This document shows, one piece after another, positions 15,991 through 23,624 of a stretch of 24,003 nt of DNA (its first letter is position 1; every line of letters starts with the position of its first letter). Below the pieces are notes generated by a model. It was not told the origin of the DNA, ran no database searches, and was given only the letters and a program-made list of their open reading frames with translations. The translations under genes and the position numbers were made by a program. The stretch spans positions 1 through 24,003 of IMG/VR virus record IMGVR_UViG_3300008448_000640; one strand, 5' to 3'. This stretch comes from a virus.

Positions 15991-16214
15991 TCACGATCTA
16001 TAGTAAAGATAATTGTCCTTGGTGCGATAGAGCAAAAGAGCTTTTGACAAATAAGAATGAATCATATAATGAGATAAAGATCGGTCGTGATATCACCCGC
16101 GACGAGTTTATGGAACAATTTCCAAACGTCAGAACCGTCCCTTATATTTTGGTCAACGAAGAAGTGCGCGGCGGTTATGATGTTCTCGTATCTCACTACA
16201 ATTCGCTCTCATAG
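15987..16214 (+). CDS. Glutaredoxin
   Basis: A 75-residue thiol-disulfide carrier that starts with GTG at 15987 (GTGA overlap with the previous stop, GGAGAG ribosome site). The redox motif is CPWC in IYSKDNCPWCDRAKELL. The cis-proline is in VRTVPYILVNEE, and a GGYDVL loop binds glutathione. T4 NrdC is the classic phage example and supplies electrons to ribonucleotide reductase; no reductase gene is in the window. The final codons (N-S-L-S-stop) form the 5' end of the tRNA gene, so the two genes overlap by 10 nt. Confidence 0.92.
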   Translation: MITIYSKDNCPWCDRAKELLTNKNESYNEIKIGRDITRDEFMEQFPNVRTVPYILVNEEVRGGYDVLVSHYNSLS

Positions 16215-16281
16215 CTTAGTGGTCTAAAGCCAACCGCTCATAACGGTTTGATCCTAGGTTCGAATCCTAGTGGGAGCCCCA
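16205..16281 (+). tRNA. tRNA with CAT anticodon (Met or Ile2), CCA encoded
   Basis: A full cloverleaf of 77 nt. The acceptor GCTCTCA pairs with TGGGAGC (one T-G). The D arm is GCTT/AAGC, and the anticodon stem AACCG/CGGTT holds the loop CTCATAA (anticodon CAT). The T arm is CTAGG-TTCGAAT-CCTAG, followed by discriminator C and an encoded CCA. CAT may mean elongator Met or, if the C is modified to lysidine, Ile for ATA codons; initiator is unlikely because the GGG/CCC pairs of the anticodon stem are absent. The discriminator C is unusual for both, so the charging identity is open. It overlaps the glutaredoxin stop. Confidence 0.93.
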
Positions 16282-16284
16282 GTT

Positions 16285-16292
16285 TATAAATA
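16285..16292 (+). promoter_or_regulatory. T4-type late promoter box TATAAATA
   Basis: An exact TATAAATA three bases after the tRNA CCA. T4 late RNA starts about six bases after the box, that is near 16298, which is the second base of the following ATG. Confidence 0.65.
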
Positions 16293-16296
16293 AATA

Positions 16297-16668
16297 ATGC
16301 GCAAAATCGCAGCTACAGTGATCATGTCGATCACTCTGTGCGGCTGTACGATTTCTAATGTAGAACAGCCGCGCATCGTCAGTTCATACCAAGTAAAAGC
16401 CTCATGGTATGAATGTTGTAAGAAAACCGCAAACGGAGAAAAATTCGATCCAGAAGGAATGACTGCGGCTCATCGCAGCTTGAAGTTTGGGACGAGGCTT
16501 AGACTAACAAATCCCAGCAATGGTAAATCAGTCATCGTTAGGATCAACGACCGTGGTCCCTTCATAAAGGGTGTTGATCTAGACGTTTCGAGAGGTGTTG
16601 CAAGATATTTGGATATGATAAAGAAAGGTCATGCCAAACTTCTTGTCGAACAGTTGGCTCATGACTAA
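16297..16668 (+). CDS. RlpA-like double-psi beta-barrel lipoprotein
   Basis: A 123-residue protein with a lipoprotein signal peptide: MRK start, short hydrophobic core and lipobox TLCGC, so the mature protein would begin at Cys17. The rest is the RlpA domain: VKASWYECCKKTANGEKFDPEGMTAAHRSLKFGT, then VIVRINDRGPFIKGVDLDVSRGVA with the conserved D-R-G-P-F and D-x-D/S catalytic-type segment. Bacterial RlpA is a lytic transglycosylase acting on naked glycan strands. In a phage it may assist lysis or modify the envelope. No ribosome site precedes the ATG; the late box ends four bases before it. Translation may need a transcript from further upstream, or the later in-frame ATG at 16324, which would spoil the signal peptide. 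A terminator follows. Confidence 0.82.
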   Translation: MRKIAATVIMSITLCGCTISNVEQPRIVSSYQVKASWYECCKKTANGEKFDPEGMTAAHRSLKFGTRLRLTNPSNGKSVIVRINDRGPFIKGVDLDVSRGVARYLDMIKKGHAKLLVEQLAHD

Positions 16669-16693: not shown

Positions 16694-16728
16694 GGGGAGG
16701 CGTGTGGTGCGCCTCCCCTTTTGCTTTT
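16694..16728 (+). terminator. Strong rho-independent terminator
   Basis: GGGGAGGCG (16694-16702) and CGCCTCCCC (16710-16718) form a perfect 9-bp GC-rich stem with a 7-base loop, followed by TTTTGCTTTT. It ends the rlpA-like unit. The last T of its tract is the first base of the next late promoter, so termination and restart share sequence. Confidence 0.92.
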
Positions 16729-16735
16729 ATAAATA
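16728..16735 (+). promoter_or_regulatory. T4-type late promoter box TATAAATA
   Basis: Exact TATAAATA right after the terminator. The expected RNA start is near 16741, two bases before the ATG at 16743, so the HAD gene mRNA would be practically leaderless. Confidence 0.8.
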
Positions 16736-16742
16736 GGGCTAG

Positions 16743-17354
16743 ATGTTAGGATTCAAAGAATATATCGCCGAAAATGTCGGAGCAGGAAGTTTGTCGGTAT
16801 TTGATATCGACGATACGCTTTTTCATACGACAACGAAGGTCTATGTTACTAAAGGGGGAAAGAAGGTCGGCGAACTTTCCCCCGCCGAATTCAATGTATA
16901 CAAACTAAAGCCAGGCGAAGAATTTGACTTCGCACAGTTTCGTTCAGCAGAGGTATTTGCTAAGACTGCAAAGCCAATTGAAACTGTATTCAAGACAGCT
17001 AAGAAAATGATCAATCGTTTTCGTGCGCATCCTAACAAGCGTATCATTATCTGCACGGCTCGCGCTGATCTTGATGACAAGCATCTGTTTCTCGATACGT
17101 TCAAGAAGTATGGATTTGATATTAGCAAGGTTCATGTTTACCGTGCTGGTAATATCAAAGCTCCAGGTGCAGAAGCTAAGAAGCAGATCGTACGCGATCA
17201 GATGAAAGCTGGTCAGTATTCTTTTGCTCGTATGTTTGATGATGCAAAAGCAAATCTTGATAAGTTTTTAGAACTCAAGCAAGAGTTTCCAGAAGTAAAC
17301 TTCGAAGCGTTTCTCATTCATGAGGACGGTCGCATCACAAGGTATCAAAGCTAA
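16743..17354 (+). CDS. HAD-family phosphatase with capsid-targeting-like N-terminus
   Basis: A 203-residue HAD hydrolase. Motif I is FDIDDTLF (D21, D23, T25), motif II is IIICTAR, and the acidic motif IV is ARMFDDAKANLDKF. The layout resembles the 3'-phosphatase domain of T4 polynucleotide kinase and related small HAD proteins, so a nucleic-acid or nucleotide phosphate is a plausible substrate. The first ten residues, MLGFKEYIAE, closely parallel the T4 capsid-targeting peptide MKTYQEFIAE that sends internal proteins into the prohead and is removed by gp21 after the Glu; here cleavage would leave NVGAG. There is no ribosome site, and a late box lies eight bases upstream. It overlaps the next gene by one base. 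Confidence 0.83.
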   Translation: MLGFKEYIAENVGAGSLSVFDIDDTLFHTTTKVYVTKGGKKVGELSPAEFNVYKLKPGEEFDFAQFRSAEVFAKTAKPIETVFKTAKKMINRFRAHPNKRIIICTARADLDDKHLFLDTFKKYGFDISKVHVYRAGNIKAPGAEAKKQIVRDQMKAGQYSFARMFDDAKANLDKFLELKQEFPEVNFEAFLIHEDGRITRYQS

Positions 17355-18148
17355 TGGCTCAAGAAGGTTTTTTATACGAGTCTAATGCATATACTGCTCT
17401 GCAGAAATTCAAAATTTCTACGGGCGGTGTAGCGGGAGCTTCTCACGACAAACCAGATTTGACAGTTCAGAGAGGAACAAAGAAGGCTGGTGTTGAGCTA
17501 AAAAATGCTCCAACTGCTGCAGGTTCTCTTGTTATGAAATATCATAACGGTAAGTGGAGCTATGGTGCTTATAAAGGTGAGATTGAAAAAGAGTTTATCC
17601 ACGATATGGCAGAAGCAAACGATCTACTAAAGAATATGAATACAAGCGGATCAGCAGGCGCAAATTGGAGAGGAAAGATTCCACACCTTCAAAACGATGC
17701 TACTGGCAAAAAAATTCTTATTCCACCTAGCATGGACAAAAGAAAAGCATACGCGGCAGATATCAAAAAGTTTGGCGGCGAAAATGAAGTTCATATCGAT
17801 ATACCTGCAAGTATGATTTGTGCATACTATATCAAGAAGAAGTGTTCTTATATCAATGTCGGAACACATGGATTGTTTACACTAAACGGACAAGATACTT
17901 TAGGTCTAAATAAAATTTTAGAAAAGAATGGTCTTGATCCACTTCCTGATTTTTCATCAAATGCTTCAGCAAGAATTCGCGTTCGTTGTCAATCAAAAGG
18001 TGGTGGTGACTATCAGTTTGTAACGACCATGGAATTTAGTCGTGTTAGCAAATCTCCATACAATCTAGCTCCTATTCAAAAAGGAAGCAAGTCAACTATT
18101 GACGCAGCCGCATTGAAAAAAGATCCAATACTATTGGCGTTCAAATAA
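17354..18148 (+). CDS. Putative PD-(D/E)XK-type nuclease
   Basis: A 264-residue protein starting one base within the HAD stop (TAATG). The N-terminal part, EGFLYESNAYTALQKF then SHDKPDLTV and KAGVELKNAPTAAGSLVMKY, gives a helix, an acidic residue (D in KPDLTV) and then E-L-K. This is the usual D...ExK core of restriction-like nucleases with a following strand. The remaining 180 residues (VHIDIPASMICAYYIKKK, then RIRVRCQSKGGGDYQFVTTMEFSR) are beta-rich. I recall similar phage proteins of unknown function. It lies between a phosphatase and a ligase-fold protein, which supports a role on nucleic acids. Activity is inferred from the motif only. Confidence 0.62.
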   Translation: MAQEGFLYESNAYTALQKFKISTGGVAGASHDKPDLTVQRGTKKAGVELKNAPTAAGSLVMKYHNGKWSYGAYKGEIEKEFIHDMAEANDLLKNMNTSGSAGANWRGKIPHLQNDATGKKILIPPSMDKRKAYAADIKKFGGENEVHIDIPASMICAYYIKKKCSYINVGTHGLFTLNGQDTLGLNKILEKNGLDPLPDFSSNASARIRVRCQSKGGGDYQFVTTMEFSRVSKSPYNLAPIQKGSKSTIDAAALKKDPILLAFK

Positions 18149-19380
18149 TGAAAAAGTTATCTACCTTTATTACTGAAGAAAAGAACCTTCACATGGAACA
18201 TCTTGAGGACTTGATCCTCAATGATGGTGTTGAAGGCGCACAGCAAATCTTTAGATTCCTGAACGCAACGCGCGATATGCTCGCTGGTCATACGAAGACG
18301 CGAGTGTCTGCCACAGTCAAGTGGGATGGTGCTCCATCTATCTTTGTTGGTGTTGATCCTCGCGACGGCAAGTTCTTTGTTGCGAAAAAAGGTATCTTCA
18401 ATAAGAATCCTAAAGTCTATAAGACACAGGCTGACATTGACGCAGACCTGAGTGGTGAACTTGCAGATAAGTTTACAATTGCGCTGCGCGAGTTCAAAAA
18501 GCTCGGTATCAAGTCTGGTGTTTATCAAGGTGACCTAATGTTTACCAAGGGTGATGTCAAGGTAGAAACACTTGATGATGTCAAGTTCTATACGTTTCAA
18601 CCAAATACAATTGTATATGCAGTTCCTGTAAATTCTTCGCTTGGTAAAACTATCAAAGCTGCAAGCATTGGTGTTGTGTGGCATACAACTTACGAGGGTA
18701 ATAGCTTCGAGTCAATGAAAGCTACGTTTGCTAAAGGTATCGTAAGCAAGCTAAAGAAAGTTGCTACGATTTGGATGGATGATGCAACATACAAAGACGT
18801 TAGCGGAACTGCTACATTCACCGCAGCCGAAACTAAAGCATTCAACGCTATCCTTGCTCAGGCTGATCAAATTATCAAGCACATTCCACACGAAGCTCTA
18901 AACTTGATTAGCTCAGATGACGAGCTACTAATTCGCGTCAAAGCTTATAACAACAGCAAGATCCGTGCAGGTCAAACAATTGCAAATACAACTTCGCATG
19001 TTGCGGGGCTTATTCATTACCTAAATGATTATTACATGAAGGAAGCTGCGAAGAAGAAAACTGACGCTGGTAAGAAAGCTCAGAAGGATAAATTCCAAAA
19101 GGTCTTTGCGCCAATCGCAAGAACTCCGCTTGTTCAACTCAAGCAGATTTTTGATTTCATGAATGTGGTTGTTGAGGCTAAGAAGATGATCATCGCTAAG
19201 ATGAATACGTCAGCAACTGTTAGTACCTTTATTCGTACACAAACCGGACTAAAGGTTACAGCCCCAGAAGGATATGTTGCTGTCGATCATCTATCTGGCG
19301 GTGCGGTCAAGCTGGTTGACAGACTTGGCTTTAGTCAGGCTAACTTTAGTACAGAAGTAATCAAGGGATGGGAGAGGTAA
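18148..19380 (+). CDS. Ligase-fold nucleotidyltransferase-like protein (DUF6267-like), capsid-targeting-like N-terminus
   Basis: A 410-residue protein starting one base inside the previous stop. It has the layout of a covalent nucleotidyltransferase (DNA/RNA ligase fold). Motif I is KWDGAPS (K58 as adenylated lysine), GVYQGDLMF may be motif III, APEGYVAV carries the E-G of motif IV (E374), and AVKLVDR carries motif V (K388). A long helical region (about 230-345) separates the last motifs. T4-like phages of marine and rhizobial hosts carry similar proteins annotated as unknown (DUF6267, from memory). It starts MKKLSTFITE followed by EKN, again like a capsid-targeting peptide with a prohead-protease site. 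Whether it seals DNA or RNA, or is only a fold relative, is not known. Confidence 0.72.
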   Translation: MKKLSTFITEEKNLHMEHLEDLILNDGVEGAQQIFRFLNATRDMLAGHTKTRVSATVKWDGAPSIFVGVDPRDGKFFVAKKGIFNKNPKVYKTQADIDADLSGELADKFTIALREFKKLGIKSGVYQGDLMFTKGDVKVETLDDVKFYTFQPNTIVYAVPVNSSLGKTIKAASIGVVWHTTYEGNSFESMKATFAKGIVSKLKKVATIWMDDATYKDVSGTATFTAAETKAFNAILAQADQIIKHIPHEALNLISSDDELLIRVKAYNNSKIRAGQTIANTTSHVAGLIHYLNDYYMKEAAKKKTDAGKKAQKDKFQKVFAPIARTPLVQLKQIFDFMNVVVEAKKMIIAKMNTSATVSTFIRTQTGLKVTAPEGYVAVDHLSGGAVKLVDRLGFSQANFSTEVIKGWER

Positions 19381-19381
19381 C

Positions 19382-19486
19382 ATGGATATCATTATCGGTT
19401 TTGCACTCGGTCTTATTGTTGGTTGGAACTTCCTACCACAGCCATCTATTGTAAAAGGATGGATTGACAAGCTACGCGGTAAGTAA
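19382..19486 (+). CDS. 34-residue membrane protein
   Basis: MDIIIGFALGLIVGWNF is one hydrophobic helix, followed by a short basic tail (GWIDKLRGK). The ribosome site GGGAGAGG lies at the end of the ligase-fold gene, one base from the ATG of this one after its stop. Tiny proteins of the same form (MD-x-x-IG-x-x-x-G-x-x-x-GWNF) occur in T4-like marine phages (recalled). Small membrane modulator is all that can be said. Confidence 0.7.
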   Translation: MDIIIGFALGLIVGWNFLPQPSIVKGWIDKLRGK

Positions 19487-19509
19487 TCTGACCGGTTGAT
19501 AACAATCAA

Positions 19510-19538
19510 ATTATACCATGCGTAAATCAATTTGTCAA
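19510..19538 (-). promoter_or_regulatory. Perfect consensus sigma70 promoter on the minus strand
   Basis: Read on the minus strand, TTGACA (19538-19533) and TATAAT (19515-19510) are exact consensus hexamers with a 17-bp spacer. RNA would start near 19503 and run leftward, antisense to the 34-residue gene and the ligase-fold gene. No minus-strand gene is supported there. It stands back to back with the late box at 19546. A TTGAT/ATCAA inverted repeat (19496-19508) lies at its start site. Confidence 0.7.
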
Positions 19539-19545
19539 TACTTTT

Positions 19546-19553
19546 TATAAATA
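19546..19553 (+). promoter_or_regulatory. T4-type late promoter box TATAAATA
   Basis: Exact TATAAATA, preceded by a T run, 65 bases before the 1236-residue ORF. RNA would begin near 19559 and carry a conventional leader of about 60 nt with a GCGAGGAA ribosome site. Confidence 0.85.
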
Positions 19554-19577
19554 AGAGAGCAGACAAATCTGCTCTCT
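19554..19577 (+). repeat. 10-bp inverted repeat at the late transcription start
   Basis: AGAGAGCAGA (19554-19563) and TCTGCTCTCT (19568-19577) are perfect inverted repeats around CAAA. The left arm spans the predicted late start site, so the late mRNA would begin inside or next to the stem. No T run follows on either strand, so it is not a typical terminator. It could be an operator, or an mRNA 5' stabiliser. Confidence 0.7.
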
Positions 19578-19617
19578 ACTCATATGCGGTCAGGCTAAGG
19601 CAATCCCGCGAGGAACA

Positions 19618-22600
19618 ATGAAAAGCGTCGTATTTACATTCGGGCGAATGAATCCCCCAACGACTGGACACCAGCTGCTTGTCAACAAGCTGGTTGCTTA
19701 TGCTCATAAAATTAGCGCTGCTCCTCGTGTTTATCTTTCCCATTCGACTGGAAAGAAAGATCCCCTACAATACGATAAGAAGATTAGCTTCGCACGACAG
19801 GCGTTTGGCGCTATCGTGAAGAAGTCGAACGCACGCAACGTAATCCAGATTCTTCAATCACTGGAGAAAGAAGGATACACACACGTTGTTATGTTTGCTG
19901 GCTCTGATCGTGTTCCTGAATTCAATAAGTTGCTCAATGCTTACAATGGCAAAGAGTATAAGTTTGACAAGATCGAAGTCAAGTCAGCTGGCGAACGCGA
20001 TCCAGACGCAGATGATGTGTCTGGTATGTCAGCTTCTAAAATGCGCGCTCTAGCAACAGATAACAAAGCCGCAGAGTTCATGCGCGGCGCGCCCTCTACT
20101 CTCAAAGCACAAACAAGAAAACAAATGTTCCTTGCTGTTCGTAAGGTACTACTAGGAGAAGATGTTATGGATTATAGCCATGATGATCGTTTCATCGAGT
20201 TCGTAATTGAGAACAGCGAAGAAGATGCTATTCAGTTGCCTTCTGACGATGAAATCAAAAAGATGATCGATAAGATTGATGTTACGGATCTTGATCTTGA
20301 TGATGCAGACGCAATGATGCTTGATCTTCTTATTGGCAAAGAAGATAAAGAAGAAGACGACGACAAAGAAGATGTAAAGGAAGCTCGTATTCTTTCTATA
20401 TCAGCAAGACAGAAACTTGCGCAGCGTATGAAATCTATGTCTAAGCGCCTTGCTCGTCTGCGTCAGATCAAATCAAAACAAATGCCAGCGCAACAGCGCC
20501 TGCGCCTTCGTGCGCGCAAGGCAGCTCTTATGATTCTTCGCAAGCGCGCGACAGGCAAGAAGAATCTCGACTACAATTCACTATCTCGTTCACAACGTAT
20601 CGCTGTTGATACTGCACTTGTTCAGCGTTTTGGTAATAGATTGAATAGAGCTATTGACGTTCTTTCAAAACGCATTCTTCCAAAGATTCGCAGCAAAGCA
20701 CAGCAAAATGTAGCAAAGGCCCGCGACATGAAGAAAGAAAATATAAACGAACTCTTTACCAGCAACCCACATCTGCTAGGTAAAGAGAAAGAAGGATCGC
20801 CGAGAGATGTTGCTCAAGACAAGCTGCAAGCTGCAAAGCGTGGCATCTCTGTTGCTGACTGGGAAAAGACAAAGGCTGATGCTGCACACGACTCTCCGTT
20901 GAACATTGATGCGACAAAGCTCAATACACTTGATACAGATCCTTCTCTCAATGATCGTACAGCACCAAATCCTAAGCAAGCACATCTACACTTGAATAGA
21001 AAGCTTATGCATTATGCTCGCGGTGTAGACGAAGCTCGTCGTGGTGCTTCAGCAGAGACTGGAGATCCAGGCGATACAAATATTATCTACCAAATGCGTA
21101 AAGCAGTTCTTGCTCGTGGCAATCACGATGTTGCATTTGCTGATGGAAGCAAGCACAAGATTTCTGTCAACGATGCTAACAAGCTAATCGACAAGTTCAA
21201 TTCGATTCGTATGCCAAAAGAAAAGCAGCTATTTACAATCGCTGCTGGTAAGTCATTGAAGGCATTCCGAGAAGTTCTCCTTCATGGTGCACCAAAAGAA
21301 GTTGGTAAGAAAGTATCACTTGGTGGTCGTTCGTTCAAAGAATTCTATATGGGCGTTGGTCGCACTCGCACAATCGCGCCATATCCTCAAGATTCAGATG
21401 AGCCGCCTGGAACTCGTCGTATTGCTGAAGCATCTGTTGGCGGCGTAGATAAAGACGCTAACGACGATCCTAATAAGCCACGCAAAACTAATGCGAAGCT
21501 AGACCTACTACTTCGTCTTGGCTTGGCTGACGGTGAAGAACTACAGAAGTATCGTCGTGCGCTTCGCACAAGCAAGAAGCAAGCTCTGCAATCACCAGAG
21601 ATGCGCAAGAAACTCGCTGATCTACTAGACAAGCTGATTGATCTAACAACACAAGATCCGGCTATCTACTCGCGCGCACGCACGAAGATTGTTACGACAA
21701 AAGAAGCTTATGCGCTTCTTCGTAAGTCCGAGATGTCTGGCATTGATGCAAACATTATTGCTGAAGTTTATGTTCGTGGTCTTAGCGAGAGCGGCGAATC
21801 AACTATTGCGTTTGATCGTGTCAACTCATTTATTGCTGGCGGCAAGGCTGCTGAGATGGATAGTGATCTGTCAGAAAAAGTAAAGGAACCAACAGGCGGA
21901 CTCAAGGATGCTTGCTGGTCAGGTTACACAGCAGTTGGTATGAAGATGAAGAACGGTCGCAAAGTTCCTAACTGCGTTCCAAAGGAAGAAGCTAAGTCTG
22001 ATGCTCAGCAACGTGCAGCTGGTGCTGCTCTTGCTACACAGCGCGGCGAGTATGCTGGTGGTAAGAAAGGCGGAGCAATCAATCGTATGGCTATGATTGA
22101 ACCAAAGAAGCTTCGTCAGATTGCTAAGAAGAAAACAAACGAAGAAGTTGAACAGATCGATGAAATCTCATCAGGTCTGCTAAAGCGTGCTATGCACAAA
22201 GCTGGTAACAGAGCTATGTGGCTTTCTTCAGCTGGCAAGAACAACCCAGCGTTCAAGAAAGAAAAAGAACGCGCAAACAAGTTTCGTACAGCTGGTATTG
22301 CTAAAGAGAAGAAAGAGAAAGTTAAAATGAACGAGATGTTCGAACAGCTTTCGACCCATAAGGCAACATCTCTTTCGCAACGTTCGAAGCGCGTAAAGCC
22401 ATTCAAATCATATGAACCACCAGCGCATACAGATCATTCCAGTTTGTCTGCAAAAAACGAAGCAACTCGTCGTAGCGATGTCAAGATGGTCAAGGTAAAA
22501 CTTCCTGACGGTAAAGTTGTTTTCCGTAGGGAGCGTCCAAAGACTGAAGTTCAGATGGAAGCTCCAGCACATAAGCATCCAACTGGAAAAGTGCCATATA

Positions 22601-23328
22601 GCGATTTGACAAACAAAGAACTTCGCGCTGATCTTACAAAGAAAGTAAAAGCAGCTAGTGAAGCATATACTGGATCAGAGCCAACAAGCTCGAACAAGAA
22701 CGATCCATCAAATCGTTTTATTGGAACTGATTCGATTGTAAAAAATTATGCAGCTGCTACACCTGGTCAATCGACTAAGATTGAAACCGCGTCATTTGCT
22801 ACTGCTAAACCATTTGTTGCTTCTTCGCGTGACGATGAAGATGCAGGAGCAGCTCGTGTTCAGGCTAATCAGACTGATCCATCAGCAGCAAAGCATTTCA
22901 AGGATATCAAGAAAGCTCTTTCTGGTGTTCGTGAATCGCATAATATCAACGAATCGTTTGCCGCAGGATTTGAACTTGCGCCATTTGCTCGCGACTATGG
23001 AATGAAAGTTCAATCTGCATTTGAACATCATCCAGAAGTGCAGGAAGCTCTTGACGCAAAAGAAGACGAGGTAAATGAAGCTATATATCAGGGACGTGAT
23101 GTTCCGTTGAATAAGCCTATGAAAGGTGATGTAAAGAAATCCAAAGTTTATGTTCGTGATCCTTCAACTGGTAATATTAAGAAGGTAAACTTTGGCGATA
23201 AGACACTAAGTATCAAGAAGGATCAACCTGCTCGTAAGAGATCATACTGTGCTCGCTCAAGCGGTCAGGGAAATCTAACAAAGAAGACCAGTGCTAATTA
23301 CTGGTCGCGTAGAGCATGGGATTGCTAA
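19618..23328 (+). CDS. Giant multidomain protein: NMNAT-like adenylyltransferase plus polyprotein-like modules
   Basis: A 1236-residue protein. Residues 1-170 form a cytidylyltransferase/NMNAT-like domain: FGRMNPPTTGHQLLV (T-T-G-H at 15-18) and SGMSASKMR (135-143), the two nucleotide-binding motifs. Then come an acidic stretch (205-255), a basic helical module (256-375), linkers, another helical module (about 610-715), a cysteine motif (DACWSGYTAVGMKMKNGRKVPNC, about 765-787), and a C-terminal module from about 1163 with SKVYVRDPSTGNIKKVNFGDK. The last two modules recur in T4-like cyanophage proteins (recalled). Junctions repeatedly read hydrophobic-x-E followed by a small or nonpolar residue: VKE/A (255), INE/L (378), VDE/A (472), IAE/A (604), IAE/V (716), IDE/I (849), MNE/M (906), INE/S (1112), VNE/A (1154). 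These resemble T4 gp21 prohead-protease sites. A late promoter drives it. Confidence 0.83.
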   Translation: MKSVVFTFGRMNPPTTGHQLLVNKLVAYAHKISAAPRVYLSHSTGKKDPLQYDKKISFARQAFGAIVKKSNARNVIQILQSLEKEGYTHVVMFAGSDRVPEFNKLLNAYNGKEYKFDKIEVKSAGERDPDADDVSGMSASKMRALATDNKAAEFMRGAPSTLKAQTRKQMFLAVRKVLLGEDVMDYSHDDRFIEFVIENSEEDAIQLPSDDEIKKMIDKIDVTDLDLDDADAMMLDLLIGKEDKEEDDDKEDVKEARILSISARQKLAQRMKSMSKRLARLRQIKSKQMPAQQRLRLRARKAALMILRKRATGKKNLDYNSLSRSQRIAVDTALVQRFGNRLNRAIDVLSKRILPKIRSKAQQNVAKARDMKKENINELFTSNPHLLGKEKEGSPRDVAQDKLQAAKRGISVADWEKTKADAAHDSPLNIDATKLNTLDTDPSLNDRTAPNPKQAHLHLNRKLMHYARGVDEARRGASAETGDPGDTNIIYQMRKAVLARGNHDVAFADGSKHKISVNDANKLIDKFNSIRMPKEKQLFTIAAGKSLKAFREVLLHGAPKEVGKKVSLGGRSFKEFYMGVGRTRTIAPYPQDSDEPPGTRRIAEASVGGVDKDANDDPNKPRKTNAKLDLLLRLGLADGEELQKYRRALRTSKKQALQSPEMRKKLADLLDKLIDLTTQDPAIYSRARTKIVTTKEAYALLRKSEMSGIDANIIAEVYVRGLSESGESTIAFDRVNSFIAGGKAAEMDSDLSEKVKEPTGGLKDACWSGYTAVGMKMKNGRKVPNCVPKEEAKSDAQQRAAGAALATQRGEYAGGKKGGAINRMAMIEPKKLRQIAKKKTNEEVEQIDEISSGLLKRAMHKAGNRAMWLSSAGKNNPAFKKEKERANKFRTAGIAKEKKEKVKMNEMFEQLSTHKATSLSQRSKRVKPFKSYEPPAHTDHSSLSAKNEATRRSDVKMVKVKLPDGKVVFRRERPKTEVQMEAPAHKHPTGKVPYSDLTNKELRADLTKKVKAASEAYTGSEPTSSNKNDPSNRFIGTDSIVKNYAAATPGQSTKIETASFATAKPFVASSRDDEDAGAARVQANQTDPSAAKHFKDIKKALSGVRESHNINESFAAGFELAPFARDYGMKVQSAFEHHPEVQEALDAKEDEVNEAIYQGRDVPLNKPMKGDVKKSKVYVRDPSTGNIKKVNFGDKTLSIKKDQPARKRSYCARSSGQGNLTKKTSANYWSRRAWDC

Positions 23329-23342
23329 TAGGAGAATATGAA

Positions 23343-23624
23343 ATGACGAATTTGCTTATGAATGATACGTTTATTTGGAGTGCATTGAGTCTTGCTGTTG
23401 TAGCTTTTGCTTGGCTTTGCTGGCCTAAGAAAAGTGTAGTGGAAACTCTTGAGGAAGCTAAGGCTGCAGAGCAACCAGCTAAAGTAGAATCACAGATTAC
23501 TGATGCTGTTACACAGGCTGCTCCAGCACCTAAGAAAACACGTGCTAAGAAGCCAGCTGCTCCTAAGAAGACTGCTGCTAAGAAAGTTGCTACTAAGAAG
23601 CCCGTAAGGAAGGGAAGAAAGTAA
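23343..23624 (+). CDS. Membrane-anchored Lys/Ala/Pro-rich protein
   Basis: A 93-residue protein. The ATG at 23343 is chosen for the GGAG ribosome site at 23331; an ATG at 23338 is out of frame and the frame's upstream codons lie in the giant gene. It has one membrane helix (FIWSALSLAVVAFAWLCW, about 9-26), a short acidic linker, then a histone-H1-like tail of repeated K-K-T, K-K-P-A and A-A-K-K units ending in KKPVRKGRK. The tail should bind nucleic acid or acidic surfaces. A membrane-tethered basic tail could hold DNA at the membrane or neutralise charge; that is speculation. A Dps-like gene follows after one base. Confidence 0.75.
   Translation: MTNLLMNDTFIWSALSLAVVAFAWLCWPKKSVVETLEEAKAAEQPAKVESQITDAVTQAAPAPKKTRAKKPAAPKKTAAKKVATKKPVRKGRK

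Follow-up and report, generated by a model that had tools for sequence, protein, structure and literature searches.

We find that two genes of a T4-like phage, encoding a HAD-superfamily phosphatase and a DUF6267 protein, begin with ten residues that match the capsid-targeting sequence (CTS) of T4, and that their products are very probably late head cargo of this Kyanoviridae-type phage. The genes lie in a window of 24,003 nucleotides (24 kb; virus record G000), a fragment of a phage genome. Both open reading frames and their starts, MLGFKEYIAE (16743) and MKKLSTFITE (18148), were confirmed. On these starts the initial annotation had built its proposal of enzymes loaded into the prohead and trimmed after Glu10, and this central part of it stands: given the constraint on the tag residues, the spread of the tag over unrelated proteins, the protease and capsid cut site of related phages and the virion proteomes of relatives, we infer packaging and trimming in this phage with high confidence. 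Subsequent ejection into the host is likely, at a somewhat lower level of assurance. What can be read from the genomes themselves is the tag, its constraint, spread and toggling between orthologues, the late promoters, the relatives' protease and the agreement with the relatives' virion proteomes.

Judging from their translations, genes for a DNA polymerase, a UvsX-like and a DnaB-like protein make up a replication block, which is followed by a late region from about position 16285. The late-promoter motif TATAAATA occurs at 16285, 16728 and 19546, each time on the coding strand and just 5' of a gene, namely that of a DPBB lipoprotein, that of the HAD protein and a giant open reading frame, respectively. 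These three occurrences compare with 0.83 expected, and at least three were seen in 4 of 100 shuffles. The motif is retained 5' of most close HAD orthologues, and its presence suggests that the HAD and DUF6267 genes are expressed late. Both had been assigned to a late-promoter unit of four genes; a late promoter does precede the HAD gene, but the giant gene has its own at 19546 and therefore belongs to a neighbouring unit. The DPBB (RlpA-like) lipoprotein frame (16297-16668) lies directly behind its late promoter and adjoins a tRNA-Met gene (16205-16281). A small open reading frame at 23316-23624, without a Pfam match, encodes a protein with a hydrophobic segment at its N-terminus and a histone-H1-like tail rich in Lys, Ala and Pro (KKTRAKKPAAPKKTAAKK).

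Table 1. Features of the putative cargo locus and its surroundings (positions in the window)
Feature	Position	Strand	Basis or remark
T4-type late promoter motif	16728..16735	+	7 bp 5' of the HAD start codon; retained in most close orthologues
CTS of HAD, MLGFKEYIAE, predicted cut after Glu10	16743..16772	+	pattern match
HAD-superfamily phosphatase, 203 aa	16743..17354	+	DIDDT, T105, K146 and FDD motifs invariant in 17 orthologues
PD-(D/E)xK nuclease-like protein, untagged	17354..18148	+	motif seen by eye in alignment (PDL ... GxELK)
CTS of DUF6267, MKKLSTFITE, predicted cut after Glu10	18148..18177	+	pattern match, conservation, disorder in model
DUF6267 protein, 410 aa	18148..19380	+	KxDG (K58, D60, G61) invariant; weak nucleotidyltransferase/ligase-like fold
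Second late promoter motif	19546..19553	+	5' of giant gene
Giant cytidylyltransferase-like (NMNAT-like) protein with DUF3008 segment, 1236 aa, untagged	19618..23328	+	profile matches

Internal residues of the same genomes served as the reference for the strict CTS pattern, M..[FYLIW]..[FYLIM][ILVM].E, and put its chance rate at about 0.001 per start; three levels of strictness were applied and results are given for each. Among the 2486 genes of 152 related loci, a pattern nearly identical to the strict one matches 251 starts where 8.6 are expected, and a tighter pattern finds 230 gene starts against 1.9 expected. The tight-pattern starts fall into 32 unrelated protein clusters, the clustering having used the sequence after residue 12, that is, without the tag. 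DUF6267 and HAD, for which the loci were fetched, are the two largest clusters; the other 30 were unselected except for a single tagged nuclease relative. The search for further genes with the ten-residue start, which the initial annotation had suggested for the whole genome, yields many of them in the relatives. Other tagged bodies in these loci include HD_4 (RelA/SpoT-like) proteins and Zeta-toxin-like kinases, and for most of the remaining tagged proteins Pfam has no family. Across nine complete or large genomes the strict pattern marks DUF6267 in 7 of 8 carriers, HAD in G001 and G004 and a cytidylyltransferase in G002, and in T4, taken as a control, it recovers the internal-protein genes. 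The shortened version MYNDLLVE at the start of HTVC008M DUF6267 counts against our reading. One more match in the window, at 543-1046 (MSNIVSLIEE), fits at the loosest positions only and is probably due to chance. Three tagged genes elsewhere merit mention in their own right: at L093:13803-14360 a protein starting MKTFKKYIAE carries an HD_4 domain resembling RelA/SpoT hydrolases, possibly a head-delivered alarmone enzyme, and at L075:7470-8147 and L157:6193-7059 this cargo locus encodes kinases of Zeta-toxin-like/AAA_33 type.

The tag is constrained at specific residues. Among 43 DUF6267 sequences Glu10 is invariant, position 4 is F, L or Y (43/43), position 8 is L, I or V (43/43) and position 7 is F or Y in all but one (42/43); no such restriction applies to positions 2, 3, 5, 6 and 9, and the linker after Glu10 differs in length. 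Codons 7, 8 and 10 drift synonymously, therefore it is the protein sequence that is under retention. The four constrained positions are the same as those identified by mutagenesis of T4 IPIII, in which residues 4 and 7 serve targeting and residues 8 and 10 processing (PMC9026906). In the structural model of DUF6267, residues 1-14 have a pLDDT below 50 as compared with a mean of 87 for the whole model; likewise, residues 1-5 of the HAD model fall below 50. Orthologues differ in whether they carry the tag, which heads 40 of 61 HAD proteins, 120 of 133 DUF6267 proteins, 17 of 89 cytidylyltransferases and 1 of 37 nuclease-like proteins. Untagged HAD orthologues begin close to the DIDDTLF motif, and in the nuclease-like homologue of L107 the string MLTFKKYITEA is prepended to the AQxGFxYE start. 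Two HAD orthologues with a decayed tag (e.g. MLKFKEYNDYK) speak against our interpretation. The tag is modular; many unrelated proteins have gained or lost it, so that it defines a locus of swappable cargo.

A gp21 homologue, which the initial annotation had proposed to look for, is found in the relatives: a Peptidase_S77 (gp21-type) gene is present in 9 of 9 genomes checked, including G001, whose HAD protein is 84% identical; it is absent from the window, which is a fragment. The T4 capsid protein gp23 is cut between Glu65 and Ala in SFLTE-A. Capsid proteins of most relatives align an [FL][IL]xE-like motif (FLTE, FLSE, LLGE, LLTE, FLGE or LLME) with this site, and because the motif matches, the end of the tag should be a site that the protease of these phages recognises. 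At L284:6806-7354 and L285:5622-5807, small proteins repeat a segment of the capsid protein just past the gp21 cut site; one of them is annotated as a virion protein.

Published virion proteomes of relatives agree with the tag. The S-CREM2 genome holds six matches to the CTS pattern, five of them at annotated starts, and these five proteins (SAM hydrolase, ORF13, APH-like kinase, ORF136 and cytidylyltransferase) are all present in the virion proteome (PMC10665884 Table 3; hypergeometric P=7e-4, and P=5e-5 among non-structural proteins only). The authors of that proteome considered carry-over in CsCl purification possible (PMC10665884). A cytidylyltransferase was detected in virions of S-SM1 (PMC3037559), S-SCSM1 (PMC9602691), S-SZBM1 (PMC9146016) and S-CREM2 (PMC10665884), and in all four phages it is tagged (MKKFSAFLNE, MKSFLQFLKE, MRFRQFIIE and MKNFSSFLTE, respectively). 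In accordance, the DUF6267 proteins of S-SZBM1 and S-CREM2 are untagged and missing from both virion tables. The kinase of S-CRM01 starts with MISFDQFLSE and is presumably the one reported in virions, as cited in PMC10665884. Exceptions are S-SZBM1_191 and SSCSM1_30, orthologous small tagged proteins that were not reported in virions. A further virion-detected protein, the Cas9-annotated gp12 of S-CREM2 (OR473000 7704-10313, locus L246), contains a CTS-like stretch, LRFASFMAEAA, that follows MTSRWSNWSTGSDKK some 16 residues from the start; 128c of S-CRM01 has a similar layout, which suggests a longer form of the tag.

The initial annotation had grouped the nuclease-like and the giant gene with the two tagged ones, but their membership of the tagged set is not supported. 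They start with MAQEGFLYE and MKSVVFTFGRMNPPTTGH, respectively, and neither could gain a tag from an upstream start, as in each case an in-frame stop closely precedes the start and no tag lies in between. The view of the giant protein as a polyprotein cut by gp21 fares no better: its internal [IL]xE sites number 8 against 8.7 in shuffles, which leaves that view without support, and its CTS-core sites are also at shuffle level. In this protein a cytidylyltransferase domain is fused to about 1000 residues, in whose tail Pfam DUF3008 and PHROG profiles match; in S-SCSM1 a DUF3008-like virion protein, recognised by eye, is encoded separately, next to the NMNAT gene. Homologues of the cytidylyltransferase part are elsewhere tagged and virion-detected.

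We propose that the HAD and DUF6267 proteins would be made late, that residues 4 and 7 of their tag would dock them onto the prohead core, and that residues 8 and 10 would let a gp21-type prohead protease cut after Glu10. Once released, the enzymes would remain in the head with the DNA and would probably be ejected into the next host; the swappable locus encoding such cargo would sit just downstream of the replication genes.

What these enzymes do is less clear. The HAD protein is a HAD-superfamily phosphatase, given its four motifs (D21-I-D23-D24-T25, T105, K146 and D166-D167, invariant in 17 orthologues) and its fold matches. The second protein is assigned to DUF6267 by PF19782 at 1.3e-101, a very widespread family (466 phage records); in 43 sequences K, D and G of its K58-W-D60-G61, a ligase motif I (KxDG), are invariant, and an EG...K pair is conserved as well. 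A reading compatible with head delivery, tentative at best, makes the cargo a kit for repairing nucleic-acid ends, with a PNKP-type 3' phosphatase (HAD), a ligase (DUF6267) and a nuclease that would act on damaged or defence-cut DNA or RNA at entry. It draws on a PHROG polynucleotide kinase profile that matches HAD at 2.6e-7, on the presence of T4 PNKP in the HAD fold list, and on the invariant DUF6267 residues together with the recurrence of DNA/RNA ligases or capping enzymes among the top fold matches of that protein. However, the best fold matches of HAD are other phosphatases, Legionella Lem4 and Ceg4 and AphA, with T4 PNKP ranking lower. The best DUF6267 match, a DNA ligase, reaches E=0.13 (prob 0.80), nothing in that fold search falls below E 0.001, and no ligase matches by sequence in Pfam or PDB, so that the modelled protein resembles ligases weakly; moreover, the nuclease is untagged in the window. 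PDB sequence searches with HAD and DUF6267 gave nothing significant, and PADLOC found no defence-system match for the three window enzymes. The earlier description of the cargo as an end-processing set is therefore not established.

Might the tagged proteins enter the core and be trimmed, yet serve head assembly or DNA packaging, as scaffold helpers or in the handling of DNA ends, rather than act as injected effectors? The T4 core also holds the structural proteins gp22, gp67 and gp68, and IPIII affects head morphology (PMC9026906); the wide distribution of DUF6267 and its place beside replication genes would likewise suit such a role. But orthologues differ in carrying the tag, and the bodies that it heads are highly diverse (HD_4, Zeta-toxin-like kinase, cytidylyltransferase), so optional effectors fit better than essential assembly factors, and T4 CTS cargo is released by proteolysis; we regard a role in assembly as unlikely. 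Still far less credible is that the pattern belongs to each protein's own fold or function, for example as a helix or dimer contact unrelated to the head: in DUF6267 it is conserved as strongly as many active-site residues, but the same pattern heads 32 unrelated clusters, orthologues lacking it are otherwise intact, the first 14 residues of DUF6267 are unstructured in the model, the following linker varies in length, and the tag predicts virion presence in S-CREM2.

T4 Alt, an ADP-ribosyltransferase, is an enzyme carried as head cargo: it is loaded into the head core, undergoes processing by gp21 and is ejected. Enzymes in this role are thus not new, and cyanophage virions, too, contain kinases, a SAM hydrolase and a cytidylyltransferase (PMC10665884 among reports). 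Unlike in that system, profile searches gave no Alt or ADP-ribosyltransferase match for any of the four window genes. Similar in design are T4 IPI, IPII and IPIII (Mullaney & Black; PMC9026906; PMC12373910), which share with the proteins described here an N-terminal propeptide of 10 residues in which the same four positions matter, a gp21-type protease (here seen in relatives), late expression, unrelated bodies that have only the tag in common, and a swappable locus. Their bodies, however, are small anti-restriction inhibitors, whereas those in the window are enzymes or enzyme-like and 200-410 aa long, and the phages here are of Kyanoviridae type, with the locus behind the gp41 helicase gene. 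The virion cytidylyltransferase/NMNAT-like proteins of cyanophages S-SM1, S-SCSM1, S-SZBM1 and S-CREM2 belong to the same family as the N-terminal domain of the giant protein, and in S-SM1 and S-SZBM1 they are encoded in the same locus beside DUF6267; they start with a CTS-like tag, whereas the window's version is untagged and fused into a 1236-aa protein.

What is new is that, in Kyanoviridae-type phages, a set of interchangeable enzymes carries the T4 address tag; we found no report of this in the open-access literature. Within that literature no paper names DUF6267, none contains tag strings such as MKTFKEF, and the titles and abstracts consulted among papers naming the CTS yielded no report of it in cyanophages. 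The virion-proteome papers on cyanophage cytidylyltransferases report their presence in virions, and no mention of a tag was found there. The tag offers a reason why a cytidylyltransferase, a kinase and a SAM hydrolase are in virions, for which the authors had given only possible cargo or carry-over.

The proteins that a phage delivers with its DNA are usually learned one proteome at a time. From T4 comes a short sequence rule that, compared with the published virion proteomes of four cyanophages, allows head cargo to be predicted in abundant aquatic phages; DUF6267 gains a place of action, and what these phages inject becomes directly testable. Probably, the ten-residue tag marks out a large class of injected enzymes in Kyanoviridae-like phages that has gone unrecognised. 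Since whole gene families would gain and lose it, a phage could shift a protein from synthesis after infection to delivery at entry, or back. If so, virion cargo would be readable from raw genomes, including phosphatases, DUF6267 proteins, nucleases, NAD-type nucleotidyltransferases, kinases and RelA/SpoT-like HD proteins.
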